A stretch of 64,000 nucleotides of DNA from Sinohyriopsis cumingii (lineage: Eukaryota; Mollusca; Bivalvia; Unionida; Unionidae): positions 1 to 64,000 of the forward strand of contig JAPYKE020000568.1 of the NCBI GenBank assembly GCA_028554795.2, read 5' to 3'. The notes under the pieces are model-generated. The model did no database searches and was not told where the DNA came from. It saw only the letters and a list, made by a program, of their open reading frames with translations. A program made the position numbers and the translations under genes. Positions 9,579-49,027 of this stretch are shown one piece after another; position 1 is the first letter of the stretch, and every line of letters starts with the position of its first letter.

Positions 9579-10531
9579 AAAGTCATGTGAACTTGATCCA
9601 ATTCCAACATCACTGCTGCTTGAGTGCTTAGATCCAGTATTGCCTTCATTAACTGATGTTATTAATACCTCTCTCTCATCCGGGGAATTCCCATCATTTT
9701 TCAAAACTGCCATTGTAAAGCCTCTGCTGAAGAAACCAACACTAGACCATAACAATTTAAAGAACTACCGCCCAGTTTCTAATCCCCCATTCATATCAAA
9801 AATCTTAGAAAATGTTCTTCTATCCCAGCTTGTATCTCATCTAAATACAAACAGTCTTTTTTAGCAATGTACAATCTGCATATCGCCCTTACCACAGTAC
9901 TGAAACTACTCTTCTGAAAGTAGTTAATGACATTCTCTCTGCTTTGGATAGTGGAAAGATAACAGTCCTCACCCTGCTTGATTTATCTGCAGCATTTGAC
10001 ACAATACACCATGATATATTACTTCACCGTCTCCAGCATGTATTTGGCATTCATGATACAACCTTACTGTGGTTCAAGTCCTACTTGGTCAACAGGACAC
10101 AAATTGTGTCTTCAAATGGAATACACTCCAGCCCAGTTGATCTATGTTGTGGTGTTCCACAGGGGTCTGTTATTGGACCTGTTCTCTTCATTCTATACAC
10201 TCAGCCGCTCTCAAGTGTCATAGATCATCATCCAGTGTCTCACCAATTGTACCCTGATGACACCCAAATATACAAATCTAGCCACCCAACTGAAGTTGAT
10301 GCTACCATCCAAGGTGTAGACAGGTGCATTTCTGATGTGAAATCAAGGATGACATGTAACAAGCTGCAGATGAATGATGATAAAACTGAGGCCATTCTGA
10401 TCACAACACAAAGACTTTCTCATTCACATCCTTTACCTCAAACAATAAATATCAGCAACACCAACATTAAATTCACACAATCAGTACGAAACCTAGGTGT
10501 TGCTCTGGACAGTACTCTCACATTGCACTAA
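9579..10531 (+). pseudogene. Reverse transcriptase of CR1/L2-type LINE (broken)
   Basis: RT signatures appear in order: a LLKKPTLDHNNLKNYRPVS region at ~9725-9780, LLDLSAAFDTIHHDIL (motif A, catalytic Asp) near 9977, GVPQGSVIGPVLF (motif B) near 10150, and YPDDTQIY near 10245, where the usual YADD has a Pro. A stop at 9862-9864 and a change of frame separate the N-terminal part from the 195-codon frame starting at 9944. After TAA at 10529 the C-terminal region continues in pieces up to about 11100. The endonuclease part is absent through 5' truncation. The element is dead. Confidence 0.85.
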
Positions 10532-11274
10532 CATGTTATGAACATATGCAAGGCTGCATATCTTGAGGTGAGACGCATCAGCTCAATTCGCAAATAACTT
10601 TCAGTTGATGCCACTAAAACACTTGTGTGTTCATTAGTACTTTCAAGACTAGACTATTGTAACTCAATTCTGTCTGGTTCATCTCAATATCTACTCCAGA
10701 AACTTCAAAAAGTTCAAAAACACAGCTGCTCGGATCATACTTAGAGTACCACGATCAGAGCACACCTCCCCGCTGCTCTGTACCCTACACTGGTTATCCA
10801 TTCGATTCAGAATCAAACACAAAATTTGTTCTCTGTGTTACGTTTCTCTGTCGGACTCTAGTCCAACATACCTATCCGACCTCACCCATGTGTATAAACC
10901 AGCAAGATACTTACGCTCCTCTTCTGACAATCGTATACTCATTATTGCCACTATGAAAACAAAGTCATATGGACAGTGTTCTTTTGCATAACAGGGCCCA
11001 GCAACGTGGAATGAATTGCCCACTGAACTTAGACACAAAGAGACAGTGATCACATTCAAGAGGGCTCTCAAAACTCACTTATTTCGACTGCAAGAACAAA
11101 CTTAAAGACCTAATAATGTTTCCTACCTTAAATATTCTCAGCATGTTTTTTAATGTTTTCTAATTTCATGTTGTTTGTTTTGTAATCATATCATTATATG
11201 TTTTTTATCTTACAGGTTTTGTCTAATGTTGTAAAGCGCTTAGAGCTTCTAAAGATTAGGCGCTATACAAAGTC

Positions 11275-12238: not shown

Positions 12239-12263
12239 CTATATATATATATATATATATATA

Positions 12264-12319
<56 letters not shown>
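12239..12319. repeat. (AT)n microsatellite
   Basis: An AT run of about 80 bases with one 'ctat' interruption. The homologous site near gene 2 (37231-37360) is a compound AT/GT array, and near gene 3 (49403-49450) it is AC with a short AT run. Confidence 0.95.
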
Positions 12320-12322
<3 letters not shown>

Positions 12323-12721: not shown

Positions 12722-12779
12722 CCTCATCACTAGATCACAGTCAGCACACAGAACGACGTTTCGTGCGCCTGAAGCCCTT

Positions 12780-12923
12780 ATGGACGAGCGTATTGCGCAG
12801 AGAATTCGGGCGCGGGAAAGCCAACCGACATGTTCCGTTCCTGGAGATGCGGGATTGATACCAGTCCGAGACGGATTCATGCTCCCCTTCTCTTTGATTA
12901 AATTGGTCTCATCTCAGACATAA
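12780..12923 (+). CDS. Conserved 47-codon ORF in GC-rich block upstream of gene 1 (uORF or first exon candidate)
   Basis: ATG at 12780 opens a 47-codon frame beginning MDERIAQRIRARESQP and ending in TAA at 12921-12923. An ORF of identical length stands at 37829-37972 upstream of gene 2. Over the first 27 codons the two copies differ only at silent positions; later codons show Arg/Gly, Met/Leu, Ser/Cys and Leu/Phe changes. The block is clearly richer in G+C than its surroundings and follows a conserved TATA-like motif by about 60 bases. It has no signal peptide and no domain I recognise. It could be a regulatory uORF in the leader of the BRICHOS mRNA, an alternative N-terminal exon (BRICHOS proteins in other animals are often type II membrane proteins), or a remnant of another gene. 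Confidence 0.4.
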   Translation: MDERIAQRIRARESQPTCSVPGDAGLIPVRDGFMLPFSLIKLVSSQT

Positions 12924-13299
12924 ATATTCTCAGCTCAGTAGATACACTTGAAAAAGGCTCATTATGCACTGACAACAAAAACAAGAATCAATAAACGCTG
13001 ATCATTTTCACAGATGTATCATTTTTTTTACCAAAATTCAACTTGTTGTGAAAATTTTATAAGCTAACTTGCGTTTTACTTTTTACTCTGAAATTGAAAA
13101 TGAAATTGAAATTATGAATGGCAATTAAAATAAATTTCATTTGACAGGAAATGTTGTGAGTGTATGAATAAAATTTCAGATTTTGAAAGAGCGATGCTCT
13201 ACAATCTTGAGTCAGTACGACTGGCAAAACAGCTCCACAAGCCAATATGTGTGTTAAACTTTTGTCTTAGTCATGTGTATGGTATTAATTACTTTTCAG

Positions 13300-13473
13300 A
13301 TGGCCTCTATCATGGTTCTTCTGACTATGGTTGCTTGCGGTTTACTCATGTCCTTTGCTATGGGTGGTCCAATCGACGAAGGCAGAGATATTGAACAAAT
13401 TAACCTGGAAGATTACCTTGAGGAAAGACTTCTGGCCCGACTTGAGGAGGCTCAGAGGGAGACTGCACCACAG
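13300..13473 (+). other. Gene 1 coding exon 1: signal sequence and acidic linker
   Basis: This exon has 58 codons. Residues 2-20 are hydrophobic (MVLLTMVACGLLMSF core), followed by GGPIDEGRD, a likely signal-peptidase area near residues 20-23. The rest is charged and helix-prone (EDYLEERLLARLEEAQ). The acceptor-like 'acttttcag' just before ATG suggests a 5' untranslated exon upstream. The donor is CAG|gtaggt. Confidence 0.75.
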
Positions 13474-16400
13474 GTAGGTATCAAGGCACATCCAATATAT
13501 CTCCAAGGTTTCGGATTTCGGTGGCAAATTAATTTAGGTATGAGAATTACAATGTCGTCTAATCTTGGTCGTGGCTTCTATGTTATCTCAGAAGACTGTT
13601 CAAATTCGATTGTAAAACAGCAATAGTAATATTCTTCTTATTCTTGCTGAGATTGGAGAATTGAATAACAAATAACAATGAAATGAGATTAATGAGATTA
13701 CTTTTAACCTCTTTATCTGTATCAGCCTCATCGACATCATCATCATCATCGTCAATATTGTTATTATTGGTTAATAGAATGCAAATAAATGATGATTATA
13801 TTTAAATTAAGAGTATGTGTTATCTATTTATTTGACCAGAAGTTCTTCATAGAGCTCCGTTTTAGCAAGCAGTTTCTATTCGCCATAAGGTTTTCGGAAC
13901 CTCATATTCAGTTTGTCATTTCAATAAACGTATGTCTATGAAATATTTCGTCCCACTACTGCATCAATATGTGTTAGAAGACATGTTTATGTTAGTGTGT
14001 TGTTATTCTTTTAAATAATATCATGATGAATGTTTACATGCAGTAGAATATGAAATCTTCTCTTACATCACGAAACGCCATTCATTTAGGACGATTGAAT
14101 ACAATAGTACTAAGTTTAAAGCCACCTTGTGCATTGGTATTAACCATCAATGAACTTGCACAGTTTGGCAGTCTGAAGCTAATCGGCTTTATGTACGTTT
14201 TATTTCTAATCAATTTAAGATATTATTTATTCCACGACTTTATTAATATTATATTATTATTAGTTATTTAACAACAAACATCAAAATCTAGAAAAGGACT
14301 ATAATAGGTGCATGACTGCCGCAATCATATAACGAATAATCTTAAACTTGTGGGTGAGAATTAACCACTTGTGTATAAGAGGGACTCTGACACTCACTTT
14401 TTCCTTACAGAATTTTACACTATGTAATACTGAGTGCCACAGTTAGCTATTTATCTCACACCTTATACTTTTATCATATATATGTACGAGGAAAATTGTT
14501 TTTCGATAGAGTGCTGTTACTGCTTTTGAAATAAAATGATGATGAAAGTTCACATAGAGTAGAATATGAAATCTCCTCTTACATCAAGGAACCTCTTTGA
14601 TCTGGGAATATTGAATGTAATAGTAGAACCTTTAAAACCAGCTTGTCCTTTGGTTTAAACTGTCAATGTAATTGTAAAATGTTTAGGATGGTAGTGTGAC
14701 GCTAGTCGGCTTTATGTACTTTCTTTTCTTTCTTTTCTTAAAGCTTTCAGTAAGAATCAAACACTTATATACAATAATGCATGTAAGACTCGCTTTTTCT
14801 TAAGAGCACTTTATACTATGTAATACTGAGTACCAGATTTAGCTATTTAGCTCATATCTTATTATTTTTTCAACAGAAACTGGAGGATTCTGACACAAAT
14901 GGAGACGAAAAACAGACCGTTCAAAAACTGAATTCTGGCATAACCAAGATCGACATCACTTTGGACAATAAACTGATTGAACAGCGTATTCTAGACTGTG
15001 AAAAGGTATAAATATTGACTCAACACTGTGATAATATTAAAAACGTTCCTAGAGGTATCTATCTTTCTAGAACCTAAATGTGAATGTCATAAATGTTTAG
15101 ATAAATGCAACCAACATGATGAATTCGGTCTATTTGAAACGATTCTAGACTTGTAATACTCTATTATATGTTATATTTGATGATGTTGTTCAATCCGAAG
15201 GACTCTAACCATAATTGAAAAAGATAATAACTAAATTTGAATTAATATAGAGAGACACTGGAAACTAGATGTAATGCAACAACAGTGCTAGCAAACATCT
15301 TATCAATAAAAGCGTATTATGCATATGAATTTACTTTTTATATTTTAAGATAAATAAAATTGTCTTGTAGTCTTGCACAGTTCTATACATAATCTGTAAG
15401 TAATTTCATGTGGGCATAATTAAAGGGGTAATCCTTGTTTTAATATTTTCAGTAGTAGTCGGTCAACATTAGAGGTCATGCTAAATAGTATACCATTGTG
15501 AATTTCGATAATTTCCATCGCATATGTGAACTCTAGTAGTTATGTAAAACTTTTCAAAATTTCTATACAATATCAATTGTTTTCCAATCCCTGTTGACAG
15601 CTGTATTATTGTCTCGGGTAAAAATTCATAATTTGATCCATTGTTTGCGAAGCCAGACCTTTCATTTTACCGGATTTTTTAGAGTATGATGATACAAGCA
15701 AATCTGTACAATACAAGCTCAGAGACGTCAACTTAATGGAATTAGAATGTCTCTATTTAACATGTCTCATGTTATAGGTCTTCGCTGACAATTTTTCACA
15801 TTCACCGAATCTAAAGCTAAATTGAGATTATATCTCAACCATATTAACTGATCGAACAATGTTTGTTGGAAATAATAATTATCATAAATAGTTGATATAC
15901 CAACTTTAGATATTATATATATGATATAGAAAAGCCTACGTGAATTCGCATTCGAAATTTTCTATGTGTTATTGCTTTCTTGATTCTGATATTTGGTCAT
16001 CAAATTTTAGATAATATGATTCTATTGTCGCTTTTTACATGGTTTAAATGTTCTACGTTTGTAGTTTAGGAATCGGATATTTATTCTAGCTTATATTAAG
16101 AATTATCACAATATTATTTTGGAAATGATTTTGCAATTGTTACCAAATATCTTCTTGTGATCATTATAAACATGTTTGGACTGTTATGGGACCATTAATC
16201 TGGCTTCCTATTTTGTATACGCAACATACTCAACATACAGGGGTACGAGATGATCATCACCAATGGCAGTGGTAGAAGTAAGAGAACTGAAGCTTGTTAC
16301 CTGCACAAAATGGATCAAGACCTCCTTGATTCTCTCTGCAGGGAAAAGGGAGAAAGGGTATGAATCTAACGTTACTATAATTTTAGCCTTGCTGAAAACA

Positions 16401-18221
16401 CATACAAACATATTTGCCTACAATTCAAATTATATTCATATGGCATACACTGCTAACTTTAATGCAGAAACTCTCAAACTTCAGTTATTTATGTTCGAAT
16501 GCAACATTTTCAACAAATTGCAATGTATACTTGATATTTAATGTTTCTTTTAAAATTCACCATAGCTAATATAATTAATTATCCATTGACATTTACATAA
16601 TCTAGAAAACTAAACTCAGAAAAGTTTTGTTGTCCAAAGATTTTTAGTGTAATAATGCATTATCACCAAAAGCACGTTGTTATTCAACGAGAGATTAAAC
16701 ATTCTTCCAAAGAGGGGATTTAAAGTCTAGTAAACCTTGTGTGTTTTATATTTCAGGATATTATAGTCTACAAGATACAGCAGGAGATAAAGGACAAAGA
16801 TTTCCTATCCGAAGACGGCCCTGACAGCGTCTGCAAGAATCGGCCGATGTTTATTATTGTGCCTATAGATAAACTAAGCGCAACAGGTATATGTATATTA
16901 ACATGTTTTATTAGATACCTTAAGATCCTTTATAGCATAATAAGGATTTGTGTCATCGAATACAATTCCAATTAAAACACTAACACTAGTATTACTCAGA
17001 TTGATACTTTTTTGCGTTGAGTGCCATTAACTTACACTCGATCCGAATTTAAAAGTAAATACTATCTAAGAGTCATGGAAAATGCGATTAGTTACCTTCG
17101 AACATATTTGAAAACGACTAATTGTGATAATCAAATGATATATCAGAAATAACGAAACGCACCATTTGAAATCTTTGACGCGTGCGAAATTGTTAGGTTT
17201 TATTTGCCTATGTTGACATTTGTCAATTGGTTGGTTTTGTTATCATCTACAAAACTAAGATAAAATATATTAGAAAATGGTTGGACTCAATGTAGACAGA
17301 ATTTAATTATTGTCTGAGTTTAATAAAGAAATCTTTATTCAGTCATAGAAAGACCACGTTGCACATGCGTGCTATATGTTGACATTCTTCGGTTTTATGG
17401 TCTTTATGTACGGGAACTATCGCAAATCAATCACGAAGTCATATAAATCTAAATTTTAATATTCATATTTAGTTTGGTCATTTGTGCCCGAGGATAGTGG
17501 ATTCTTTTCCATTGAATCTTTTCGTGAAATTATTTCACAGACACATAGTAGAGCTGTTCCCGTATATTTTCTCTTTAGACCTTCTCATGTACCATTACAA
17601 TAGCAGTAGAATTTTAGACTCTTGGTCGTGTTTGAGCAGAAAAGTGTTTCTTCTAACCCATATCTTTAGTTGTGTACCCTCCATCTGGTACATATCGATA
17701 ACGAAAAAAGTAATCTCTAGTTCTCTTTTCATCACTTGTAACCGCAAATGAGCATTATTGAAAAATAATTCTACAAATTTAGATGGAAACGAAACAAATT
17801 TTTACAACGTAAGATAGTATGACTATCAGTCCCGTTTATATTTCCCATCATGCTCATAATGCTTAGACATGATTAGATTTGTAGTCTTAATTTTCAACAT
17901 ACTACCACCATTGCACTTACATGAAGATAAAAAGCTAACATCCTCACAAAATTATGTAATTATATTGTTGTGTTTCAAGCAATGTACATGTATCAGCTTA
18001 TATATATTTTCTACAGTCACAAAACCAGTTGTTCAGCAGTTAAATCAATTTTTCCTTGTTCGTAAATCAAATGACAAATGACATTATATTTTATATTTAT
18101 TCCAGACGCATCCAAGGATAAAAGATCATGTTCTAGTTATTGCTGCGAATATGGCTGGTGGTGGGGCCGAAATACTTGCAAAAAGCAGTGCATGCAATGC
18201 GGAATGACTGAACAAAAGTGA
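13300..18221 (+). CDS. BRICHOS-domain precursor of a secreted six-cysteine peptide (gene 1, intact, five coding exons)
   Basis: Coding exons are 13300-13473, 14877-15005, 16241-16357, 16757-16886 and 18106-18221 (666 nt, 221 residues plus stop). Every intron is GT-AG, and intron phases are 0, 0, 0 and 1. Domains in order: hydrophobic signal sequence (residues 1-22), acidic Glu/Leu-rich linker (23-~77), BRICHOS-like region (~78-177), dibasic site Lys189-Arg190, and a C-terminal peptide (191-221) with six Cys. The BRICHOS call rests on the ILDCEKG segment holding the conserved Asp (Asp98), the ACYLHKM segment (Cys120) and VCKNRPMFIIVP (Cys166). These match the family pattern of one Asp and two paired Cys, usually 'CY' and 'C..p.y'. 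In this family the domain chaperones an aggregation-prone C-terminal segment. The product is inferred to pass through the secretory pathway and be cut at Lys-Arg. Polychaete antimicrobial precursors share this layout, so a host-defence peptide is the first guess; a venom-type peptide is possible. The start at 13300 directly follows a tttcag acceptor; in-frame ATGs at 13273 and 13279 are alternatives. Confidence 0.8.
13474..14876 (+). other. Gene 1 intron 1 with an internal tandem duplication
   Basis: This GT-AG intron holds a short (CAT)n run near 13738-13752. Its 3' part occurs twice: 14036-14470 and 14545-14870 share 'agtagaatatgaaatct', 'cggctttatgtac' and 'ctatgtaatactgagt' in the same order. 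The homologous intron of gene 2 has one copy only. No ORF of interest is present; the frame at 14050-14271 is intronic. Confidence 0.7.
14877..15005 (+). other. Gene 1 coding exon 2: linker to first BRICHOS strands
   Basis: This exon has 43 codons in phase 0 on both sides, so skipping it would keep the frame. It ends with ILDCEK, which carries the expected BRICHOS Asp (98) and an extra Cys (99). The acceptor is ttcaacag and the donor AAG|gtataa. Confidence 0.75.
15006..16240 (+). other. Gene 1 intron 2
   Basis: This is a GT-AG intron of 1.2 kb, AT-rich, with no nested gene or repeat of note. The counterpart in gene 2 (39161-40072) is shorter, lacking about 180 bases around 15590-15895. Confidence 0.7.
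16241..16357 (+). other. Gene 1 coding exon 3: BRICHOS core with first conserved Cys
   Basis: This exon has 39 codons in phase 0. It contains TEACYLHKMDQDLLDSLC: Cys120 in the 'CY' motif and a further Cys at 134. The donor is AGG|gtatga. The frames at 16208-16411 (-) and 16263-16541 (+) that overlap it are shadows. Confidence 0.8.
16757..16886 (+). other. Gene 1 coding exon 4: BRICHOS C-terminal part with second conserved Cys
   Basis: This exon is 130 nt and ends in phase 1. It encodes a charged helix-like stretch (IQQEIKDKDFLSEDG), then SVCKNRPMFIIVP with Cys166, the expected disulfide partner of Cys120. The acceptor is tatttcag and the donor ACAG|gtatat. This is the only exon kept in all three gene copies. 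Confidence 0.8.
16887..18105 (+). other. Gene 1 intron 4
   Basis: This is a GT-AG intron (gtatat ... ttccag) of 1.2 kb without nested features. Its body (16960-17820) is the part best preserved in the inverted gene 3 remnant, where homology stops near 47890, before exon 5 would be reached. Confidence 0.7.
18106..18221 (+). other. Gene 1 coding exon 5: cleavage site and mature six-cysteine peptide
   Basis: After the Lys-Arg site this exon encodes 31 residues with Cys at mature positions 2, 6, 7, 18, 22 and 25. The pattern is C-x3-CC-x10-C-x3-C-x2-C, with Trp11-Trp12-Trp13 and net charge about +2. Two C-x3-C pairs could pin two short helices, but the fold is not known to me. TGA is at 18219-18221. 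Confidence 0.8.
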
Positions 18222-18292: not shown

Positions 18293-18298
18293 AATAAA
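18293..18298 (+). terminator. Poly(A) signal of gene 1
   Basis: AATAAA lies about 72 bases after the stop codon, within 'ggaaaataaaag', followed by a T-rich stretch. The gene 2 copy reads 'aaaattaaag' at 42151-42160, the weaker ATTAAA variant. Confidence 0.6.
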
Positions 18299-18639: not shown

Positions 18640-19990
18640 TACTTCACCGAGTATATTAAAGGTTAGTTTGACAAATAAATACCAGCTGATATATAAAATA
18701 GTAGAGTAGAGAATGGGTGGGAAAACGTGGGAAAACGTGGAGTTAAGTACACATATGGCAGTTGTCAGCATACAACATATGGACTTTTTAGAACTAAACG
18801 AATACCATCAATGATGACAGGATCAAATTTGATAAAATGGAAAACTTCCTCCATAAATTTCCACCAAAAATATATTAAAGATATACGGTATAAAACTTGA
18901 ACGCAATAGAAGATACAATTCAAAATTACAAATATAAGCAAAACGAGAGAAACAAGTTAAATAGGAATTACCGAAACGATTGCAAGAGAGAAAAAGAAAC
19001 TAAGAAGCGAGCGAGAAACAAAATACTGAATGCCTTATAGTTTATAATTTAGTTAAAATCAAAGGTATGCTTGACAATTAGTGATGGACTTAAGATTTTA
19101 AAGACATATTAACAATCGTTTCACTTGATCCAACTCCAACAACTCAGTATAATAATTTAATGATACGAAATATTTAAGAGAATTTTAAAAGTCTGCTACA
19201 CAGGAAACAACTAGTCCATATGCAAGACGCTAAACAGCTTTGACAACTACACTTTAAGACCTTTTTAGTGATTACTCGATTATCAGGTTGGAGACCAGGC
19301 GGTCATATGAAATAATGTAAGAATTAACTAAATTTGGCAGTATGAAAATAACTGGATGCCGAATGTTTTATTCGAATGTGAAAGTACACAGGCTATCCAA
19401 GTTAATAATGTGTGCATAGTCCTCATATCTACCTGAAATTACGAAAATCTTTGTCTGAACGTGCAACTACGAAGTTCAGTGTGAAACAATGTAACATACT
19501 GTGCAATAACAATATAATTCCACAATATATAACTTTTTGTTTGATAATGGACATAAATTACAATCAAAGGTACATTGAGGTTTTGTACACCTGCACCATA
19601 CAATACGTTAAAGGCTTTTAAACGCTAAAATAGATGTGAAGCTGTAACCTATGAGTACTGGAGACAACTTGAGTCTGAGAGGAAGCAAATCTTGAGAACA
19701 TGATACTATTATAGCCCTAACCCTAATCGAAATATCGGTCACATGATAAATTTATTTTCGGAACTCGAGTCAAAAACAAAACCCCCTTGACACAGTCCTT
19801 TCGACTCTTCGTTGTTTCAAAGTTATTTGAGAATAAAAGATTTGTCGAACTAGGTTATTGCTTAGATAGCACATTGTGACAAGATTCAAGCAATATAATT
19901 CTGTCAGCTGTTAAGCAGCCAATCGTAACTCGTCAATAGATAGGAACATGATTACACATTATCTAGACATGAAGGATACAAATAGGGGTC
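18640..19990 (+). repeat. Block Y, left part (downstream of gene 1)
   Basis: From about 19030 this is the reverse complement of 64000-63040. It also shares motifs with its own neighbour 21880-22600 ('gtagagaatgg', 'gaaaaacgtgg', 'gatggacttatgattt'), so Y contains a diverged internal tandem duplication. No gene is recognised. Confidence 0.7.
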
Positions 19991-20175: not shown

Positions 20176-20340
20176 GTGTAGCTAGTGTCGCCCGAAGGTC
20201 AAACGAGATTTTCTACTGTTTCTGTGAAAATAAAAGTGTATTAGCCACTTGAGATATGCATATATAAATGACATAGTAATAAGGTTCAAACTTATGTTTA
20301 AGTCAACATTATTCCAAAGGATGCGTGGATGTTTACATTT

Positions 20341-20552
<212 letters not shown>

Positions 20553-21307
20553 GTGCAACCTTTCTGCGACATCATGTATATTACGTATATCTTTGTTAAT
20601 AGCGTGTATGTTTATATCACTAAAATAGATTTTAAGGTCATTTTTGATTATCATCATTCTTAAATATCGAAACGTTAGCATAGATAATGAAATACCATAG
20701 CCATACATATTAGCTAGATATTTTGCCCACTTGTAGGTTTAACCTCCGAAGTGATACCTTCGAGCGTGATGTGCATGCTTATATATCGGCCTAGTCAGCT
20801 TCCGAAGAAGCCGTCTCGATATTCTGAAAATAATCGCGGGTTTGCATTTACGTTACAGAAAGCGCGTTGTAATTACTGTGAATGTAATGCATGGATTTGT
20901 AGATGTAACAGGAATATATCAGTGTAACCAACAGGAGGAATATTCCAAAGTATGGAAGAGATTGATTGATCCTGAAATTTGACTGACTATGTGACTGCTG
21001 CTTATGCCGGAATATTCTGTCCTTAACTCCTGTTGCAACCTGGGCCAAAGTAGGTCACAGTGACTTGCATCATTCTCAGAGTGCATACTGTAGACTAAAG
21101 ACTGGATGTTTGATTTGATCTACATGAAATTGAAATGCCGGAAATACTGCAAAATGCTACATCACTATATTAGTGGAGGTGACTCTCGTCTCGTTGTTTA
21201 GGGCAATTTACCTATAAATATTATCGGGTAAGATAAAATACCCGTGAAAACAACCACCTCCAACCCCCTAAAGAAAAAAGGACATAATTCCTTCCCCAGT
21301 ATAAGTT

Positions 21308-21508
<201 letters not shown>

Positions 21509-23104
21509 TACTCCACGTCGATAATCATTCATCATTCGGGCTTAAATAGTGACGCATTGATGTTGGCTCGTATTTCTAGGTACAAGAGGTGTTATATATT
21601 CACTGGAGAAAAAAAGATTCTAAACTGACCGATAAAGGAACGAAACACAGCAAATAAATTCTTGCAGTAGTAAGATTTATGATGATTTAACCTTTACACA
21701 TACACAAGCACAAACGCACACAGGCACTTTCAGCTATTGAAGACTTAAACGTACCCTCTATCCGTTACGGAAGATTACGTTAAGACCGGGACTATACCAT
21801 AAAAGTATGAATTTGAACGTATGTTAGAAGAAAGTGACTGGTCACATGGACCATCTTACCACTACTTGCTTATACTAATATAAAGGTTACTATGACAAAT
21901 AGATACAAGTTGATATGCAAAATAAAAGAGTAGAGAATGGATGGAAAAACGTGGAATGAAGAATACAAATGGCAACTGTCAGCATATAACATATGGATTT
22001 ATTAGAATTAAAAGAATCCGATCAATAAATGTGTGATAAGACGATAAATTTCATGTCCAGCAAAAAGAGTATATTAAACATACTTTATAACACGTTTTTC
22101 ATAATTACAAATATGTACAACAAGAGAGAAGAGAAACTAAGAAGCAAGCGATAAACAAAATATATGTATGTCTGTTAGCTCATAATTTTGTTAAAGTCTG
22201 AGGAATGCTTGACAATTAAATGATGGACTTATGATTTGATTTTAAAGACAAATTAACAACCATTTCACTTGATCCCACTCCGGCAATTCAGTGTAAGAAT
22301 TTAGTGATCCGAAATATTTAACAGAATTTTTTAAATCTACTGCACAGGAAACAACTATGTAACATGCAAGACGGCAAAAAGTTTTGACAACTACACTTAA
22401 AGATCTGATAGTGATTATTCTATTGTCAGGTTGATGTCCATGGTATCATATGAAATTCTGTAAGGATTAAATACATTTGGCAAGATGACAATAACTAGTT
22501 GCTTATTATCTTATTCGAATGTCAAGAATTACAGGCTATCAACGTTAATAAAGTGTGAATACAACTCTCATTTTTACCTGAAATTCGAAAAATATTTGTC
22601 TGAACTTGCAGAAGCATTGTTTTACCTGAAGATCAGGACTTTAAGACAGCCACGAAGACATATCTGAAACACGATAACATAATGTGCAGTAGCTTTACGA
22701 TTCTACAAGACGTAACTGCTTCTTTTATAATAGACATGAAGAGCAATATAAAGTTCACTGAAGTTTTGAGCAGCCTCGACCAAACTATAAATTCAAGACA
22801 TATACACGCTTATAGAGCTTTGCACCAGTAGCATATTAATACTGGTAACGATTTGCGTCCCAGCGGAAGCTAATTCTGAAACCCCGATACTAGTATAGAC
22901 CTAACAGAATAGACTGAATCAAATATGTGTCTCATGACATATTAATCTTGGGTGCTTGGGTCAAGAACAATGTTTTTAACGAATGTATTATAAGCACACA
23001 AAAAAAAGTTGTTATAAGTGCCGTAATAATCTTGTTAATTATCGCAACTTTCTCTTTAAACGTTTCTATTTGAAAAGTTGATTGTATGTTATAGTAGCTC
23101 TTTT
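21509..23104 (+). repeat. Block Y, right part
   Basis: This is the reverse complement of 62745-61150 in the right arm, and the direct counterpart of 43100-44335 downstream of gene 2. Shared landmarks are 'gtggaatgaag', 'cttgatcccactccggcaatt' and 'gttgttataagtgccgtaat'. No gene is seen; the frame at 22485-22667 has a right-arm copy but no recognisable domain. Confidence 0.75.
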
Positions 23105-23345: not shown

Positions 23346-24449
23346 TAAACTGGCACACTGCAGACATCGTAGTTATATAACTGAAAAATTGTTAAAGCTT
23401 CGTTAAAAATCCAAATCAAACACTCTTCTTTAACTTTAGAATCTTTTTTAATATTATTTTTAAAGTTATGTTTTAGAGCTGTTGAATGCCTTCTACCTGA
23501 TGTTTTTGTTTTAGCCAGTTTACCCATTGAGATGTAGTTTGTGGTGATTATATAACGTTGTGTCGACATCTGTTTATTCCTTGTGAATGGCTCCATTGGT
23601 TTCGTTGGTTTCATTTTTGTTCTCGGAAGCTTTCGTTTATTTGATATTGTACAACAATAGTTTCTAAAGTTTTTTAAGTCCTGCAGATAGGATTATTTCA
23701 TGTTTGTTCCTGATCATATACATCTGAAATTCAATTACCACAGTAGTGGCTGCAGAGTTTTGCGACAACAGTTTTTTTGGCCCACCGTTTTGGAACATTG
23801 CTTTGGGTTTTGCCTGTTTATTAGTACTACAATGTGCTTAGTCGGCTTTTGAATAAATCTTAATTAATACCGGCTTCAATTTGATGTAGGAATTATGAAA
23901 GTTGTACATCGGTCACTTACTCAAAACTACTAGAGTGAAGTAGCCAGAAAGAAAGGATCTCATACATTTCTTTCAAGTTATAAAAGATTACAATATATCT
24001 TTAAGGTGCTTTATTTGTCTTGCACGGCCCTTCGCAGTTTATTTTTAATTCCGAATGACAAATAAAGCAGAAGAAAATGATGTGACATTATTACAATAGT
24101 TCAGCTATGGATTAAAATTAACTACAAAGTGCATTATAAATTAGCCAATCCGTTACAAATAAATTGAAGCATTTAGTAACCAAATAATGAAAAATAATCG
24201 TATTTCAACTGTGACTAACCCATCAAATGTTCTTATTTCTAAGAGGTCAAGGGCTCGGTCACGTACAGAAAGTTATCCATTTCTTCCTTCAAACAAACGC
24301 CTGTTTTATATTATCATGGAGAATAATGAACCATTCCTGTCGACAGGTTCTATATCACATATTAATCGTTCTGCCAAATATATATATCTATTAAAGGTTT
24401 AAGGGACACGAGAGCTTCTTCGAGTTTTTTTTTAATACCCTTTCCTCCT
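23346..24449. other. SINE-to-gypsy interval with two frames kept in both arms
   Basis: On the - strand a frame starting MKPTKPMEPFTRNKQ (23333-23614) recurs, shortened, at 60651-60836. On the + strand a 71-codon frame starting MKNNRISTVTNPSNV (24187-24402) recurs at full length at 59867-60082. Neither is recognised. The second precedes the gypsy protease fragment and may be part of that element. The rest shows no features. Confidence 0.45.
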
Positions 24450-26179: not shown

Positions 26180-27050
26180 ACAGTCAGATGGAAAGATAGA
26201 TGTTAATTTCTATAAAACGTTTTATGCTAACATTTGTTCATTTTTTCTCAATGTCTCTATCTCTTTATCGTAGAATTCTCCAAAGTTTTAGGAGTATGGG
26301 TAAGGACATTTTTCTGCACAAAATTTTTATTAGCAGCATCAGATTTTTTTATCCAATCTGCTCAATTTATAGAACGACTGCTGTTCCAATTTAAGACATT
26401 ACTTAGTGTCTGTCTTAGTACATCGCCTTTCTTACATTTTCATCTTTCTCCAATATTTAGAACTAAACACTGGGGACTCTTAAAGGTATTTCAGTCACTT
26501 TTTCAACGTAAATTTCCTTTATATATTTTAATGTGCAATTAGTAATTGTCATATCCAGTATTACGGTCGCAAAGGATTATGAAGGCAAGATAAAAAAGTA
26601 GTTTAATCAATATGAAGTCTAAAATGGAGAGAGAGAGAGACGGACAGAGTAATTGCAATATCTTTTTGTACTGTTCCGCTGATCAGTGAGACTTTGCAAT
26701 TTAATCCTGTTCAAACCAACTCTGATTTAGTAAGTGTATTTACATATCCCACAATATTAAAATTGGGCCCAGTGGTCTGACTGGTCTCAAGCACTCACCT
26801 CCTCGAATCACTGCCATCTCACCTCTATCCACGCGGGTTCGTGTCGGACAGTCTTGATATGTGTGAAAGCTTGCCAGTAGCATCCTTTAAGTCGGTTGTT
26901 CTTACGGAGGTTTCTCAGGATCTTCCTCCACCAGTTGAAGTGAATATGAATACAGTTATACGATCCTGTGTCTAATAATATATACAATCATCAAATATCA
27001 GAATTTGAGACGCAAAAAGATACCAGTGTGAAACAGTTTCCATGTATCTA
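26180..27050 (+). repeat. Block Z, left part
   Basis: This is the reverse complement of 57200-58120 and of 45230-46090. Shared landmarks are 'ctccaaagttttaggagtatggg', 'aagcactcacctcc' (diverged) and 'ggatcttcctccaccagttgaag'. No gene is recognised; frames at 26200-26542 are not shared as proteins. Confidence 0.7.
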
Positions 27051-27055
27051 TGTAT

Positions 27056-27064
27056 TTATGTATG

Positions 27065-27098
<34 letters not shown>

Positions 27099-27219
27099 TG
27101 TACGTATGTATGTATGTATGTATGTATGTATGTATGTATGTATGTATGTATGTATGTATGTATGTATGTATGTATGTATGTATGTATGTATGTATGTATG
27201 TATGTATGCATGTATGTAT
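27056..27219. repeat. (TATG)n microsatellite
   Basis: About 40 units of TATG with rare variants. Counterparts are at 44949-45215 and 56967-57180. Frames across it (Met-Tyr-Val-Cys or Thr-Tyr-Ile-His repeats) are artefacts. Confidence 0.97.
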
Positions 27220-28115
27220 GACTTTATTCCTCTTCAAACTAGATTTCATTTAGTTATTTTCATTATTATGTAATAGTAACCGGAACATCAAAGTGACATT
27301 AATGAATATGCAACACACAAGACATGTAATATATGTACACAAGTACACTGATTGAACGCATCTCTGTATATTACACGATTTTAATTCATCTTGACCATAG
27401 TCTGCCTTAATTTGAGATAATACAAACGACTTTGTTTTGGTGCTCCTCTTCACTCCACTGAAAGTCATTTCGTTGATTCGTACTAGTATTTGGTATAAAT
27501 CGAAAATATGTGGCAATTTGTGAGATGTTTTGCCGGTGAAATTTATGTTAACCAATAGCTGGTTTTGAAATGCTGTCTCTTAGTTGTTTTCTCTTCACAT
27601 GTTTTCTCTTTTTCTTATGTTTGTATTACACTTTATTTTGTAGTGCTTTTGAAATTTGATGTCGTAGATTGCAGAATGTCTGCAGTTCGAATATGTGATG
27701 CCAGAAGTTGATTAATTATAGAATAAGTAGCTGATTAATAACATTCTAAAGCAAGTTGTACAAACAAATGTACACATATTACCTTTGGTAAGCTTTGAAA
27801 CTCGTCGACCATTACAATGCAAGTTCAAGATGGTGTCATCAATGGCGACACTGTAAAGCGAAGATTCAACGTCATTTATCAGATGAAGAAATTCGCGCGA
27901 TGAAAGAAATAGATTTGAAGTTCACACAAAAAAATTAATAAGGTTTACGTCAGTAAAGTATAAGATGTTAGGTAGCTGTATGTATTTAGGTTAACGGCAC
28001 ATCAACACAAGTCTGGCTATATTCTGCTAACTGAATTTAACAATTAAAGCTCACAAAGAAGCCTTCCTTTCATCAATATATAACGCCCACACAGTTACAC
28101 ATACATACATATATA
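27220..28115 (+). repeat. Block Z, right part
   Basis: This is the reverse complement of 56070-56950 and, for 27230-27840, of 44336-44940. A frame of about 100 codons is partly kept: 27250-27555 (-) and 56646-56939 (+) share RINEMTFSGVKRSTKTKSF. The family is not recognised; at 44640-44900 it is broken. Confidence 0.7.
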
Positions 28116-33559: not shown

Positions 33560-34585
33560 ATGCATACATTCAGAATGAGAGACATCATTGCCATCGTCAC
33601 CTGGAACATTAGAACTCTGGCGCAAATTGGAAGACTCCAAGAGTTGACACATGAGCTGGAACACTACACATGGCACATTCTGGAACTCTGTGAAGTTAGA
33701 TGGAAATCCCTAGGAGAACACCGAACCGAAGATGGGCATATATTATACTATAGTGGAGAGTGTGACAAGTCCATAAATGGAGTAGGCTTCCTTGTAAACA
33801 AAGCCATCAAGGGATCTGTGCTTGAATGCTGCCCCATATCTAGCAGAATCATTTCCATTCGTCTGAAAGCATCTCCCTTTAACATCACAATTATCCAAGT
33901 CTATGCTCCAACTACCGGTCATGATGATGAAGAAATAGATGAGTTTTACAACAAACTACAGGGTATTCTAAACATGGTCAGTAAGAAAGATATCCTCATT
34001 GTCCAAGTCCACTAGAACGCCAAAGTTGGCAAAGATGCTCTAAAAGACTGGGAAGTACATTGTGGACCTTCTTGCAATGAGCTTACTAATGAAAGAGGGA
34101 GACGGCTGCTAGAGTTCACAAGCTACAACAACTTGGTACTTGCCAACACCCTGGGACAACATAAAGCTTCACGATGCTGGACATGGCACTCACCAAATGG
34201 AACCCATCACAACCAGATCGACTACATACTGGTTCAAAACCGTTACCGATCTGGCATCAATAGAGCAAAAACAAGGACATTCCCAGGTGCTGATGTTGGG
34301 AGTGATCACGACGTCGTGATTATGAACTTCCGAGTGAGGCTGAAGAAAATTAACAAGCCAAAGAACGTCAGGTTCAAATTCAACCTTGAACAACTGAAGG
34401 ACCCTAACAGCTGCAAGTCATTCCAAGCCACAATTGGAGGAAAATTTGCTATACTCCTTGTGATGGATGGTGATGCCAAAGAGATGACAGACACCTTCAA
34501 CACAGTCATGACAGCAGCTGCCAAGGACATCATTGGCCTCCATCGCCCGAAGAAAAAACCCTGGGTTACAGAAGAAGTTGTGTGA
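33560..34585 (+). pseudogene. RTE-type endonuclease domain (interrupted)
   Basis: The open part begins MRDIIAIVTWNIRTLAQIGR (near 33578), the N-terminal strand of AP-type endonucleases. A LCEVRWKSLGEH segment carries the metal-binding Glu, and an IQVYAPTTGHDDEEID segment follows. TAG at 34013 interrupts where the family has 'GDWNA', removing a catalytic position. The frame resumes through NQIDYILV and ends with the catalytic GSDHDVVI near 34300. The frame is lost again at 34583. Confidence 0.85.
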
Positions 34586-34760
34586 TGCCCGAAGAGAACT
34601 CAAAAACACCAGACTCACAACAGGTGCATTGAAGTACCGAGAAATAAACAAGAATATCAGAAAAAACTTGAGCAAAGCAAAAGAAAATTGGATTGGACAA
34701 AAGTGCATATAAATGGAGAACAGTCTGATAAAGAATAACAGCTAAAAGACATTCCAAATT

Positions 34761-35960
34761 GTGAAAGACCTCACCAGACAGAAACAACCAAGAGTCAGTA
34801 CCATTCAAGACAAAAATGGAAAATGCCTCACAGAAGCGAGTGACACTGCAGAAAGATGGACTGATTATTTCAAAGAACTCTACAACCATCAGTCCACAGG
34901 AGACCCAGAGGTGCTTGAAGTTCAAAACTCCTCAAATGATGATGACTTCCCCATTCTCAAAGAAGAGGTGGAGTCAGCAATAAGAGCACTGCAGAATGGG
35001 AAGGCAGCTGGAGTAGACAACATCCCAGCTGAACTTATCAAGAATGGGGGAGAATCAGTGAAAGAGTTACTAACAAAAATCTGCAACAAGATCTGGCAGA
35101 CAGGTGAATGGCCAACACAATGGACCCAGTCACTGATTATAACACTTCCCAAAAAAGGCAATCTCCAGCTGTGCCAAAATTACAGAACTATCTGTTTGAT
35201 GAGCCATGCTAGTAAGGTAATGCTGAAGATCATCTTGAACAGACTGAAACCACAAGCAGAAGAAATAATCGCTGAAGTACAGGCTGGGTTCCGGAGTGGA
35301 AGAAGCACAACAGAACAAATATTCAATCTCAGGGTTCTGTGCGAAAAGTACTCGCAACACCAGAAAGACATCTATCATGTGTTCATAGATTTCGAAAAGG
35401 CCTTTGACAGAGTGTGGCATGAGGAATTGTGGGCCACAATGAAGAAGTATAACATGGGTCAAAAGTTAACCAGTACCATCAAGCAGTTGTACGCCAAGGC
35501 TACCAGTGCAGTAATTGTCCAAGGTTCTCTGGGGGACTGGTTCCAGACAAAAGTGGGAGTGCGTCAAGGCTGTCTCCTATCACCCACGCTTTTCAACATC
35601 TACTTAGAGCGCATCATGAGCGAAGCCCTGGAAAACCACTGTGGGACAGTCAACATTGGAGGGCGTAACATAACCAACATCCGCTTTGCAGACGACATTG
35701 ATGGGCTGGCAGGCAGTGAAGACGAGCTTGCCACCTTAGTGAAGAAACTGGATGAAACATCTTCCAGATTTGACATGGAGATAAGCGCTGAGAAGACAAA
35801 ACTGATGACAAATAGTGGCAAACAAATCTCAGCCAAGACTAAAGTCAGAGGACATGAACTGGAAACAGTGAGCCAGTTCAAATATCTTGGTTCCATAATC
35901 ACTGAAGAGCAGAAATTTTGTCAAGAGCAGCACAAACAATGGCAGCTATGTCAAAGCTAA
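34761..35960 (+). pseudogene. RTE-type reverse transcriptase (399-codon frame of a broken element)
   Basis: RT blocks in order: KAAGVDNIPAELIKNGG, LPKKGNLQLCQNYRTICLM, EVQAGFRSGRSTTEQIF, VFIDFEKAFDRVWHEELW (motif A Asp), VGVRQGCLLSPTLFNIYLE (motif B), IRFADDIDGLAG (motif C, both Asp kept), and KYLGSIIT. The RT catalytic residues are intact, but the frame is separated from the endonuclease by frameshifts near 34585-34760. A frameshift near 35920 breaks it from the C-terminal part. Confidence 0.9.
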
Positions 35961-36501: not shown

Positions 36502-37360
<859 letters not shown>

Positions 37361-37760
37361 ATTATTACATCTCAAAATTAGGAATATTCGGATGATTTTA
37401 CCTTATTCTTTGAGATCAAACTTATTATTTTTGTTTAATATTTTTCAGTTTTGTAGTTCTGTAATGGAAGTACCACGTTAACCACATTCCCTATAAATAC
37501 AGTATGAATATGGTTGAGTTTTTCAGAAATAATTGTATACTCTAGCTATGCTAAATGACGAACGTTCTTTGTACTTCTAATACATGCATGTTTTCACTGA
37601 CAGCTTTTTTCGTAGATATAGATTACCATCACATTTATTTAGTTATTCTTTCTCCAAAGACAATTAAGTGTATGGGTGTCTAAGATGATTACTAATTTTG
37701 GTTCACACCATTACAAGGATTTTTTTTTGTCATTCCCTGACTTCTGTGATAATCTCTAGT

Positions 37761-37770
37761 ACTTAAATAG
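37761..37770 (+). promoter_or_regulatory. TATA-like element upstream of gene 2
   Basis: 'acttaaatag', identical to 12712-12721, with the same downstream 'cacagtcagcacacagaac'. Confidence 0.35.
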
Positions 37771-37828
37771 TCTCATCACTAGACCACAGTCAGCACACAG
37801 AACGAATTCTCGTGCGCCTGAAGCCCTT

Positions 37829-37972
37829 ATGGACGAACGTATTGCGCAGAGAATTCGGGCGCGGGAAAGCCAACCGACATGTTCCGTTCCTGGCGATGCG
37901 GGCTTGATTCCAGTAGGAGACGGATTCTTGCTCCCCTTCTGTTTTATTAAATTGGTCTCATCCCAGACATAA
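37829..37972 (+). CDS. Conserved 47-codon ORF upstream of gene 2
   Basis: This is the same-length counterpart of 12780-12923, starting MDERIAQRIRARESQP with only silent differences through codon 27. It includes GDAGLIPVGDGF where gene 1 has VRDGF. That it stays open although the downstream gene is broken could reflect recent decay or an independent role. Same alternatives as for the gene 1 copy; no domain is recognised. Confidence 0.35.
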   Translation: MDERIAQRIRARESQPTCSVPGDAGLIPVGDGFLLPFCFIKLVSSQT

Positions 37973-38340
37973 AGATTCTCAACTCAGTAGATACAGCTTT
38001 AAAAGGCTCATTATATACACTGACAACAAAAACAAGAATCAATAAACGATAATCATTTTCACCTATGTACCATTTGTTTACCAAATTCAACTTGTTGTGA
38101 AAATTTTCCAAGCTAACTTGCTTTTTACATTTTCCTCTCAAATTGAAAATGAAATTGTTAAAAAATAAAGAATGGCAATTAAGATAAATTGCATTTGACA
38201 GGAAATGTGAAAGTATGAATAAAATTTCAGATTTTGAAAGAGCGATGCTCTACAATCTTTATTGGCAAAACAGATCCACCGCCCAATCTGTGTGTTAAAC
38301 TTTTGTCTTAGTTATGTGTATGGTATTATTTATTTATCAG

Positions 38341-38511
38341 ATGACCTCTATCATGGTTCATCTGACTATGGTTGTTTGCGGTTTACTCTTGACTTTTGCC
38401 ATGGATGGTCCAATCGACGAAGGCAGATATATTGGACAAACTAACCTGGAAGATCACCTTGAGGAAAGACTTCTGGACCGACTTGAGGAGACTCAGAGAA
38501 AGACTGCACAG
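38341..38511 (+). other. Gene 2 exon 1 (signal exon, intact)
   Basis: 57 codons with a cag|gtaggt donor and the same acceptor-like 'tatcag' before ATG. It is one codon shorter than in gene 1, because a Pro codon near the donor is missing. Confidence 0.7.
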
Positions 38512-40586
38512 GTAGGTATCAAGGCACATACAATATAATTCCAAGCTTTCGGATTTCGGTGCCAAATTAATTTAGTGATGGGAATTACAATGTCGTCTAA
38601 TCTTGGTCATGGCTTCTATGTTATCTCAGAAGACTGTTCAAATTCGATTGTAGAACAGCAACAACAATATTCATCTTATTCTTGATGAGATTGGAGAATT
38701 GAATAACAAATAACAATGAAATGAGATTACTTAGAGTACTATTGAATATAATAGTATTAAGTCTGAAGCCACCTTGTGTATTGGAATTAACCATCAATGT
38801 ATTTGCAAACTGCACAGCTTGGCAGTCTGAGGCTATTCGGTTGTATGTACTTTTTTATTTATAATTAATTTAAGATATTATTTATCCCACGACTTTATTA
38901 ATATTATAGTATTAATAGTTATTTGACAATACACGTCAAACTTTAGAAAAGGACTATAATAGATGCATGACTACCGAAATCATATAACAAATAATCTTAA
39001 AATTGTGGTTGAGAATTAACCACGTGTGTATAGTAAGGACTGCGACACTCACTTTTGCCTTAGAGAATTTTGCACTATGTAAACTGAATTCTGACATGAC
39101 CAAGATCCATATCACTTTGGATAACAAACGATTGAGCATCGTATTCTAGACTGTGAAAAGATATAAATATTGACTCCACATTGTCTTAAAAGTAAAAATG
39201 TTCCTAGAGTGAACTATCTTTCCAGAACCTAAATGTGAATGTCATAGATCTTTAGATAAATGCAACCAACATGATGAATTTCGTCGATTTAAAATGATTC
39301 TGGAGTTGTAATACTCTAATATATGTTATATTTGATGATGTTGTTCAATCTGAAGGACTCTAACCATAACTGATAAGGATAATAACTAAAGTTGAATTAA
39401 TATAGAGAGACACTGGAAACTAGATGTAATGCAACAACAGTGCTAGCAAACATCTTATCATTAAAAGTGCATTTCGCATTTTAATTCACTTTTTACATCT
39501 TAAGGCAAATAAAATTTTCTTGCATGCTTGCACAGTTCTATGCCTAATCTATGAATAATTTCATGTTGGCATAATTAAAGGGGATAATCCTTGTTTTAAT
39601 ATTTTCAGTAGTAGTCGGACAACTTTAATGGTCATGCAAAATAGCATACCATAGTGAATTTCGATAATTTTCATCGCATATGTGAACTCTAGTAGTTATG
39701 TAAAACTTTTCAAAATTTCTTTACAATATCAACCAACGTTAGATATTATATATATGAAATACATAAGCCTACGTGAATTCGAATTCGTTATCTTCTACAT
39801 GTCATTGCTTTATTGATTCTGATATTTTGTCATCAAATTTTAGATAATATGATTCCATTGTGGCTTGTTACGTGGTTTTAATGTTCCACATTTGTAGTTT
39901 AGGAATCTATTATTGACTCTACCTTATATTAAGAATTATCACATATTATTTTGCAACTGATTTTGCAATTGTTACCAAATATCTTCTTGTGATCATTATA
40001 AACATGTTTGGACCGTTATGGGACCATTAATCTGGCTTCCTATTTTGCATACTCAACATAATCAACATACAGGAGTACGAGATGATCATCACCATTGACA
40101 ACGGTAGAAGGCAGAGAACTGAAGCTTGTTACCTGCACAAAATGGATCAAGACCTCCTTGATTCTGTCTGTAAGGAAACTGAAGAAAGGCTATGAATCGA
40201 AGATTACTATAATTTTAGTCCTGCTGAGAACACATACAAACATATTTGCCTACAATTCAGATGATATTCATATTGGCACACACTGCTAACTTTAATGCAG
40301 AAACTCTCCAACTTCAGTTATTTATGTTCGAATGCAACATTTCCATCAAATTGCAATGTATACCTGATATTTAATGTTTCTTTTAAAATTCACGATACCT
40401 AATATAAGTATCCATTATCATCTACATAATCTAGAAAACTAAACTCAGAAAAGTTTGTGTTGTCGAAGGATTTTTAGTGTAATAAAGCATTATCACCGAA
40501 AACACGTTGTTATTCAACGAGAAATTAAACATTGTTCCAAAGGGGAGATTTAAAGGCTAGTACACCTTATATGTTTTATATTACAG

Positions 40587-40716
40587 GATATTAAAGTCTA
40601 CAAGATATAGCATGAGATAAAGGACAAAGAGTTCTTATCCCAAGACGGCCCTGACAGCGTCTGCAAGAATCGGCCGATGTTTATGATTGTGCCTGTAGAA
40701 AAACGAAACCCAACAG
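40587..40716 (+). other. Gene 2 exon 4 with in-frame TAG
   Basis: Same length as the gene 1 exon, with SVCKNRPMFMIVPV retained. TAG at 40608 replaces a Gln codon; the gene 3 remnant has the same TAG. Confidence 0.8.
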
Positions 40717-41964
40717 GTACATGTATATTTACAGCAAGAATATTAACATGTTTTATTAGATACCTCAAGATCCTCTATAGCAAGATCAGGATTTGTGTCA
40801 TCGGATACAAATCCAATCTAAACGGTAAAGGTAGTAGTGCTCAGGCTGATTATTTCTTGCGTTGAGTGCCATAAACTTTCACTCGCTATGAATTTAAAAG
40901 TAAATACTATCTAAGAGTCATGGAACATGCGATTAATTACCTTCGAACGTATCTGAAAATGACTAATTGTAGCAAACAAATGATATCTCAGAAATATCGA
41001 AACGCACCATTAGAAATTTTTTTATACGTACGAAATTGTAACGTTTTATCAGCCCATGTTGACATTTGTCAATTCGTTGGTTTTGTTATCATCTACAAAA
41101 CTAAGATAAAATATATTAGAAAATGGTTGGACTCAATGTAGAAAGAATTTAATTATTGTCTGAGTTTAATAAATAAATCTATACACAATTTGGTGCCATC
41201 ATAGAAAGACCACGTTGCACATGCGTACTATATGTTAACATTCATCGGTTTTACGGTTTTTATATACGGGAACTATCTCAAATCAACCACGAAATTATAT
41301 AGATGTAAATTTTAATATTCATATTTAGTTTGGTCATTTGTGCCCGAGGATAGTGGATTCTTTTCCATTGAATCTTTTCTTGAAATTATTTCACAGAAAC
41401 ATAGCAGACTTGTTCCCGTATATTTTCTCTTTAGACCTCCTCATGTACCATTACAATAGCACTAGAATTTGAGGCTCTTGGTCGTGTTTGAACAGAAAAG
41501 TGTTCCTTCTAACCCATATCTTTAGTTGTGTACCCTCCATCTGGTGCATATCGATAGCGAAAAAAGTAATCTCTAGTTCTCCTTTCATCTCTTGTAACTG
41601 CATATGAGCATTATTAAAAAAAAGTTGTACAAATTTAAATGTAAATGAAACATATTTTTACAACGTAAGGTTGTATGACTATCAGTCCCGTTTATATTTC
41701 CCATCATACTCATGATGCTTATACATGATTAGGTTTTGAATCATTTTAACTTGCCACTTCTTACCACGATTGCACTTACATGGAGATAAAAAGCTTACAC
41801 CCTCACAAAATTATATGATTATATTGTTGCGTTTCAAGCAATGTTCATGTATCAGCTTATGTATATTTTATACTATCACGTGACCAGTTGTCCATCAGTG
41901 AAATAAACTTTTGCTTGTTGGTAAATCAAATGACAAATGACATTATATTTTGTATTTATTCCAG

Positions 41965-42071
41965 ACGCATCCAAGGATAAAAGATCTTGTTCTCAGTATT
42001 GCTGCTCATGGGGCTGGTGGTGGGTGCCGAAATATTTGCAAAGCTCAGTGCATGCAATGCTGAATAACTAA
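41965..42071 (+). other. Gene 2 exon 5, frameshifted peptide exon
   Basis: The 'ccag' acceptor, the Lys-Arg site and the first Cys residues with the Trp triplet are recognisable. A one-base insertion after the Trp codons then puts the last three Cys codons out of frame, ending at TAA 42069-42071. Confidence 0.75.
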
Positions 42072-42179
42072 ACAAAAGTGAACATTCACTTTGCATGCCT
42101 AATTTCAACAAATCTACTGTAAGAAAATGAAAATCATTGTATATCCAAAGAAAATTAAAGTCTTTTAGATTTGAGTATA

Positions 42180-44940: not shown

Positions 44941-44948
44941 ATAAAGTC

Positions 44949-48897: not shown

Positions 48898-49027
48898 CTG
48901 TTGGGTTTCGTTTTTCTACAGGCACAATCATAAACATCGGCCGATTCTTGCAGACGCTGTCAGGGCCGTCTTGGGATAGGAAATCTTTGTCCTTTATCTC
49001 CTGCTATATCTTGTATACTATGATATC
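48898..49027 (-). other. Gene 3 remnant exon 4 with in-frame TAG
   Basis: 130 nt with acceptor ttacag and donor ACAG|gttcgt. SVCKNRPMFMIVPV is kept, and TAG is at 49006-49004. It is closer to gene 2 than to gene 1 (shared VEKRNPT ending). Confidence 0.85.

Follow-up and report, generated by a model that had tools for sequence, protein, structure and literature searches.

A five-exon gene of the unionid bivalve Sinohyriopsis cumingii for a predicted secreted precursor with a BRICHOS-like proregion and a cysteine-rich C-terminal peptide

Antimicrobial peptides released from precursors with a BRICHOS domain (BRICHOS-AMPs) are stated to be known from polychaetes only in the accessible text of two accounts, from 2019 (PMC6780910) and 2022 (PMC9756803). 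In this work we have analyzed a stretch of 64,000 nucleotides from the unionid bivalve Sinohyriopsis cumingii (contig JAPYKE020000568.1, positions 1 to 64,000; hereafter the window), in which a gene on the forward strand between 13300 and 18221 very probably encodes a secreted peptide precursor, as judged from its sequence. Five coding exons join into 221 codons plus a stop, and all four introns have GT-AG borders, with phases 0, 0, 0 and 1. The elements of the gene are the following.

13280-13299, + strand: candidate 3' splice acceptor, TGGTATTAATTACTTTTCAG, abutting the ATG, with TTTTCAG directly 5' of it
13300-13473, + strand: coding exon 1, residues 1-58, with a hydrophobic signal-like start, an acidic linker after it and a GT donor
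14877-15005, + strand: coding exon 2, residues 59-101, where the BRICHOS-like domain begins; Asp98 and Cys99 are codons 14994-14999
16241-16357, + strand: coding exon 3, residues 102-140, with Cys120 (16295-16297) and Cys134 (16337-16339)
16757-16886, + strand: coding exon 4, residues 141-184, ending in phase 1, with Cys166 (16832-16834) and the conserved stretch DKDFLSEDGPDSVC
18106-18221, + strand: coding exon 5, with the end of the proregion, the Lys-Arg site (18120-18125), the six-cysteine tail and the TGA stop
18126-18218, + strand: putative mature peptide of 31 residues, net charge +2, with the frame C-x3-CC-x10-C-x3-C-x2-C
18293-18298, + strand: AATAAA polyadenylation signal, 72 bases past the stop

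Since the acceptor abuts the ATG, an exon of the 5' untranslated region may sit further upstream. The spliced product has a hydrophobic N-terminus (peak 12-mer hydropathy 2.61), regarded as a signal sequence on hydropathy alone. The proregion (residues 23-190) carries a net charge of -11 and ends with Lys189-Arg190; the tail behind it has its six cysteines at positions 192, 196, 197, 208, 212 and 215. The first-pass annotation of this DNA had proposed the 221-residue frame with its consistent phases, the precursor anatomy, the residues Asp98, Cys120 and Cys166, the Lys-Arg site and the 31-residue tail. The residues, the site and the tail are all present as claimed, the anatomy is supported, and the frame was borne out by the joining of the splice borders and by homology to mussel proteins.

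Homologues were sought in three protein searches against 5.77 billion sequences, which were word-based and needed shared 5-residue words, with E limits of up to 1 in the first and up to 10 in the other two. They returned ten homologues, all from two freshwater mussels and all named 'hypothetical protein', and no protein from further organisms, annelids included. Four come from Potamilus streckersoni (P0001, P0002, P0006 and P0009; CHS0354_024317-024319 and CHS0354_035049) and six from Sinanodonta woodiana (P0003-P0005, P0007, P0008 and P0010; ACJMK2_010978, 010981-010983, 011137 and 012920). The best of them, P0001 (214 amino acids), shares 37% identity with the window protein over 97% of the query, from the signal to the tail, with an E of 4.5e-30 against the 5.77 billion sequences and 2e-41 in pairwise BLASTP. 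In eight of the ten the identity is 35-38% over 76-97% of the query; the partial P0007 reaches 48% over 48%, and P0010 27% over 65%. Identity to P0001 ranges from 28 to 73% among the mussel proteins, and the window protein is 26-39% identical to its homologues; these values would suggest that the animal of the window is probably not closely related to the two mussels. No firm placement of the window protein was obtained in a tree of the 11 domains. Several of the locus tags are consecutive or near to each other (024317-024319 in Potamilus; 010978 and 010981-010983 in Sinanodonta), with contigs of equal reported size, so tandem arrays are likely in these mussels.

When the mussel proteins were compared by tblastn with the unspliced window (E up to 0.01), exons 2, 3 and 4 were matched, and most of the matches stopped on an exon border or close to one; exons 1 and 5 gave no match at this limit. 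The product of exon 1 aligns with the N-termini of the homologues. As the tblastn matches were made on raw DNA, they support the calls of exons 2-4 independently of the earlier splicing. A chance joining of open frames was considered and is ruled out, because the mussel homology runs along the full length and exons 2-4 were matched individually.

Asp98, Cys99, Cys120, Cys134 and Cys166 are invariant in all 11 sequences. According to the available text of PMC9627735, one conserved aspartate and two conserved cysteines are the hallmark of BRICHOS, the aspartate being conserved in 97% of single BRICHOS domains; Asp98, Cys120 and Cys166 correspond to this pattern in 11 of 11 sequences. Cys99 and Cys134 form an additional domain pair that was absent from the first-pass annotation. 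In a Pfam scan of the window protein BRICHOS (PF04089) was the sole family reported (E 0.052, 14.2 bits, residues 116-172). For a single family named beforehand this E would be about 2e-6 (0.052 / 24736 models), but the naming drew on the same residues. Ten shuffled versions that kept all cysteines, Asp98 and the N-terminus gave no BRICHOS match; three of the ten matched some Pfam family at an E of 0.25 or better, one of them at 0.016, so the value of 0.052 is unimpressive by itself. The BRICHOS fold, in the available descriptions, is a beta-sheet with two helices, one of which the conserved disulfide links to a strand, and in a structure model of P0001 the strands and helices follow one another in a BRICHOS-like order. 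When this model was compared with known structures, the BRICHOS entries 2yad and 8rnu were among the 50 entries listed, with a match tied with those of unrelated folds.

By these results the proregion domain is probably related to BRICHOS. Several observations weigh against it. The 14.2 bits lie below the curated cut-off of 25 bits for Pfam BRICHOS, which is a detection threshold and not a biological feature, and none of the ten mussel homologues has a Pfam BRICHOS match. The domain is therefore called BRICHOS-like here, and formal Pfam membership is not claimed. Together with the four invariant domain cysteines, where BRICHOS has two, the tied structural match and the negative profile comparisons given below, this would suit a lophotrochozoan pro-domain of separate origin, similar to BRICHOS by convergence only, in a precursor that still exports a cysteine-rich peptide. 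We consider such convergence unlikely: the family predicted beforehand was the only one matched by Pfam, two different BRICHOS proteins appeared among the 50 structures, and the order of elements, the placement of cysteines and the intron phases agree with the available descriptions of BRICHOS and of alvinellacin. The BRICHOS region proposed from the DNA is supported by the residue pattern, the sole Pfam family and the element order of the P0001 model, and weakened by the score below the cut-off and the tied structural match.

The remaining comparisons were less telling. Phmmer and hmmsearch against PDB sequences returned no BRICHOS chain. Alignment by hhalign with human proSP-C and Bri2 was negative, and the positive control, proSP-C against Bri2, failed too, so this test has no discriminating power. 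In pairwise comparison with proSP-C the scores were hardly above those of shuffles. Three of the 11 proteins were scanned against NCBIfam, with nothing found for the window protein and P0001 and one match below the cut-off for P0010 (ETRAMP, 15.9 bits against 32.75). Matches of the homologues to MamL-1, AcetDehyd-dimer, GeBP-like_DBD, DUF7776, Cytochrom_NNT and DUF1547, all below the Pfam cut-offs, were taken as noise.

Six-cysteine tails recur in seven of the ten homologues (P0001-P0006 and P0009). P0010 has a tail with eight cysteines; the partial P0007 and P0008 have no six-cysteine tail. P0001-P0005 share the frame C-x2-C-x3-C-x5-C-x3-C-x2-C, a spacing of 2-3-5-3-2; the spacing is 3-3-4-3-3 in P0006, 3-0-6-3-1 in P0009 and 3-0-10-3-2 in the window protein. 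The P0009 tail (C-x3-CC-x6-C-x3-C-x1-C) is the only one among the homologues to start with C-x3-CC, like that of the window protein. The spacing is exactly symmetric in P0001-P0005, which count as one pattern, and in P0006, as it is in 0.009 of random placements for each, and such symmetry is as would be expected of nested hairpin disulfides; in the window tail (0.19 of random placements) and P0009 (0.31) it is not significant. A helical hairpin, an idea taken from the spacing, was rejected for the tail, as the P0001 model shows strands instead. In the divergent homologue Sinanodonta ACJMK2_012920 (P0010) the tail behind the Lys-Arg site (residues 198-246, eight cysteines) has Val/Tyr-rich stretches around SGWWWGRR and is perhaps a long beta-hairpin; the motif GWWWGR is common to this tail and that of the window protein.

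The window protein and seven of the eight homologues with a multi-cysteine tail (P0001-P0005, P0009 and P0010) have a dibasic site a short way ahead of the tail. In P0001-P0005 it is KR or RR 7-8 residues before the first tail cysteine, with KK closer; P0006 has no such site ahead of its tail in the part inspected, within the last 80 residues. This varying position, and its lack in the P0006 stretch, are what would be expected if the protein stayed uncut and its tail remained part of a matrix or mucus protein that is secreted and disulfide-linked. The presence of the site in all the other multi-cysteine precursors, and the usual cleavage of BRICHOS precursors by convertases in the available accounts, make this improbable, and a released peptide is the reading we retain.

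As to its use, the tail is somewhat more easily read as a defence peptide than as anything else, an opinion that draws on the annelid precedents. The weak net charge of +2, the compact cysteine-rich frame and the want of a functional name for any of the ten homologues speak instead for another secreted peptide, such as an enzyme inhibitor, a signalling or adhesive peptide or a toxin. To this we give a rather low probability, since annelid BRICHOS-AMPs, with the exception of nicomicin-2, are broad membrane-acting antimicrobials in the part of the review available (PMC9756803) and some tails of the mussel family are more cationic: P0010 with +4, P0009 with +4 (+3 if cut after Lys-Arg) and P0006 with +5 from the chosen start. 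For venom, the other use suggested in the first-pass annotation, no evidence was found; none of the ten homologues has a functional name.

The gene is not the only one of its kind in the window. Two broken copies and a stretch shared by the upstream regions were recognized.

12745-12905, + strand: GC-richer upstream stretch, about 160 bases long and 92.5% identical to 37794-37954 before the second copy
37000-42503, + strand: second, broken gene copy with its upstream region
47899-49682, - strand: third, partial copy, in which the upstream region is joined directly to intron 3, exon 4 and intron 4

The upstream stretch is a possible promoter or 5' untranslated region; one frame is open in both 12745-12905 and 37794-37954. 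Copy two has lost the start and the acceptor of exon 2; its exons 2 and 5 are frameshifted, exon 4 contains a stop, and the donors of exons 2 and 3 are altered. The third copy has in its exon 4 an in-frame TAG identical to that of copy two. Copies one and two are 0.87-0.91 identical in their exons and 0.89-0.91 in their introns, and none of the 11 cysteines differs between them. The proportion of differences is 0.105 at synonymous sites (pS; 12.3/117.0) and 0.108 at nonsynonymous sites (pN; 51.7/477.0). All seven six-cysteine mussel tails end at the last cysteine, whereas the window tail has six residues more, and the stop of copy two stands exactly where the mussel tails end; the window gene may have lost a stop codon, although the direction of the change is not proven. 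Such a loss within 18126-18221 would recall the peptides that arise from Bri2 by stop loss in familial dementia.

The pN/pS ratio of 1.03 demonstrates no constraint on the intact copy, which may be drifting. Neutral drift of one copy or both would give such a ratio, and so would adaptive change, or constraint on one branch that the small number of synonymous changes hides. Added to the broken state of both sister copies, the equal divergence of exons and introns and the frame running six codons past the last cysteine, the ratio allows copy one to be seen as a recently disabled or never-expressed duplicate, intact by chance in a decaying array. We find this rather unlikely: in copy one 221 codons, the borders of four introns and the polyadenylation signal have all been kept where copy two has several lesions, the cysteines are unchanged between the copies, and so small a number of synonymous changes (about 12) leaves room for constraint on one branch.

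We favour by a modest margin of belief a precursor with a BRICHOS-like domain that yields a disulfide-rich defence peptide; this would extend to molluscs a system stated to be known from polychaetes only. The signal sequence, recognized by hydropathy, would take the precursor into the secretory pathway. The BRICHOS-like domain, roughly residues 70-177 within the acidic proregion, would be locked by a Cys120-Cys166 bond and probably by a family-specific Cys99-Cys134 bond, and is expected from annelid and human precedents to hold the C-terminal peptide, which is sticky, aromatic and rich in cysteine, in solution during the formation of its three disulfides. Cleavage by a convertase after Lys189-Arg190 would then release the weakly cationic peptide of 31 residues, whose role would most likely lie in host defence, as with the annelid BRICHOS-related peptides.

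Elsewhere in the window, copies of a dispersed repeat, about 0.8 kb long at most, are found at 18640-19470, 21881-22610, 43131-43913, 61630-62382 and 63578-64000, the copy directly downstream of the gene being 70-93% identical to the others. Two frames on the + strand match the reverse transcriptase family Pfam RVT_1, 9845-10531 with an E of 3e-24 and 34746-35960 with 1.8e-43, and probably come from two non-LTR (lacking long terminal repeats) elements; a weak likeness to endonucleases, short of the cut-off, was seen in a further frame at 34016-34585. Long microsatellites of TA, TG and TGTA-like units are numerous in the window (12240-12320, 20340-20600, 26950-27270, 44900-45250 and 62740-63070) and translate as IYIYIY and YVCMYVCM frames. 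Scans of the window for tRNA and Rfam families were empty, and a cephalopod SINE motif had no match.

Among known proteins the nearest are those of the unionid mussels, which are homologous to the window protein along the whole precursor and have in common with it the invariant Asp and four Cys of the domain. Human proSP-C and Bri2 have no significant sequence similarity to it; the human BRICHOS precursors are membrane proteins that carry other cargo. BRICHOS proteins as such are not claimed as new to bivalves, since a 'BRICHOS domain-containing protein' is named among upregulated Mytilus transcripts in the available part of PMC4203926, and the available text of PMC12466427 names BRICHOS-domain peptides, with no example, in a sentence on several phyla including molluscs. 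In the accessible portions of the literature on BRICHOS with mollusc, bivalve or mollusk, no molluscan BRICHOS peptide precursor is described.

The idea that the gene represents a related peptide-export system in another lineage is upheld by the precursor anatomy, the BRICHOS-like region and the intron phases, and weakened by the Pfam score below the cut-off. What appears new, with partial support, is a BRICHOS-like carrier of cysteine-rich peptides outside annelids that has an extra invariant pair of domain cysteines. It is conceivable, if somewhat doubtful, that the mussel genes form an undescribed molluscan multigene arsenal that predates the annelid-mollusc split and combines one BRICHOS-like carrier, its extra disulfide and interchangeable hairpin peptides with three to four disulfides. 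The same tentative reading would have the tail frameworks (C-x3-CC, the symmetric 2-3-5-3-2 and 3-3-4-3-3, and the eight-cysteine form) diversify on a fixed carrier. If true, the origin of BRICHOS-linked peptide export moves back to early lophotrochozoans, and natural tails with differing cysteine frames on one carrier become a resource for studying the demands that a BRICHOS-type domain makes on its cargo. Should the domain be BRICHOS, all ten mussel homologues escape the Pfam model, and surveys based on this model undercount such precursors.

The closest described systems are annelid. Preproalvinellacin and the capitellacin, arenicin, nicomicin and HfBRI precursors have, in the available descriptions, the same order of signal, acidic proregion with one BRICHOS domain and C-terminal host-defence peptide, a layout to which the window protein conforms in its hydrophobic N-terminus, proregion of -11, Lys189-Arg190 and tail of +2. 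The alvinellacin and capitellacin genes have six exons, the alvinellacin introns being all of phase 0 except the last, of phase 1, as given in the accessible text of PMC4002450; the window gene obeys this phase rule with four introns in its coding sequence against five. Compared with the published annelid descriptions, the domain of the window protein differs by its extra invariant cysteine pair and its Pfam score below the cut-off. Annelid tails are typically beta-hairpins with one or two disulfides in the part of PMC6780910 at hand, whereas the window tail has six cysteines. Cysteine-rich C-terminal peptides behind BRICHOS have nevertheless been described, so that the earlier statement that no described family has this combination was too strong: nine families of BRICHOS-related peptides are known from one worm, one of these families having 11 cysteines, as do HfBRI-75 and -91 of Heteromastus filiformis (PMC10745061, available part), and AmBRI-44a of Arenicola marina has four disulfides (PMC11767717, available part). 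Compared by description, these annelid peptides share with the window precursor a cysteine-rich cargo behind a BRICHOS or BRICHOS-like carrier and differ from it in the number of cysteines.
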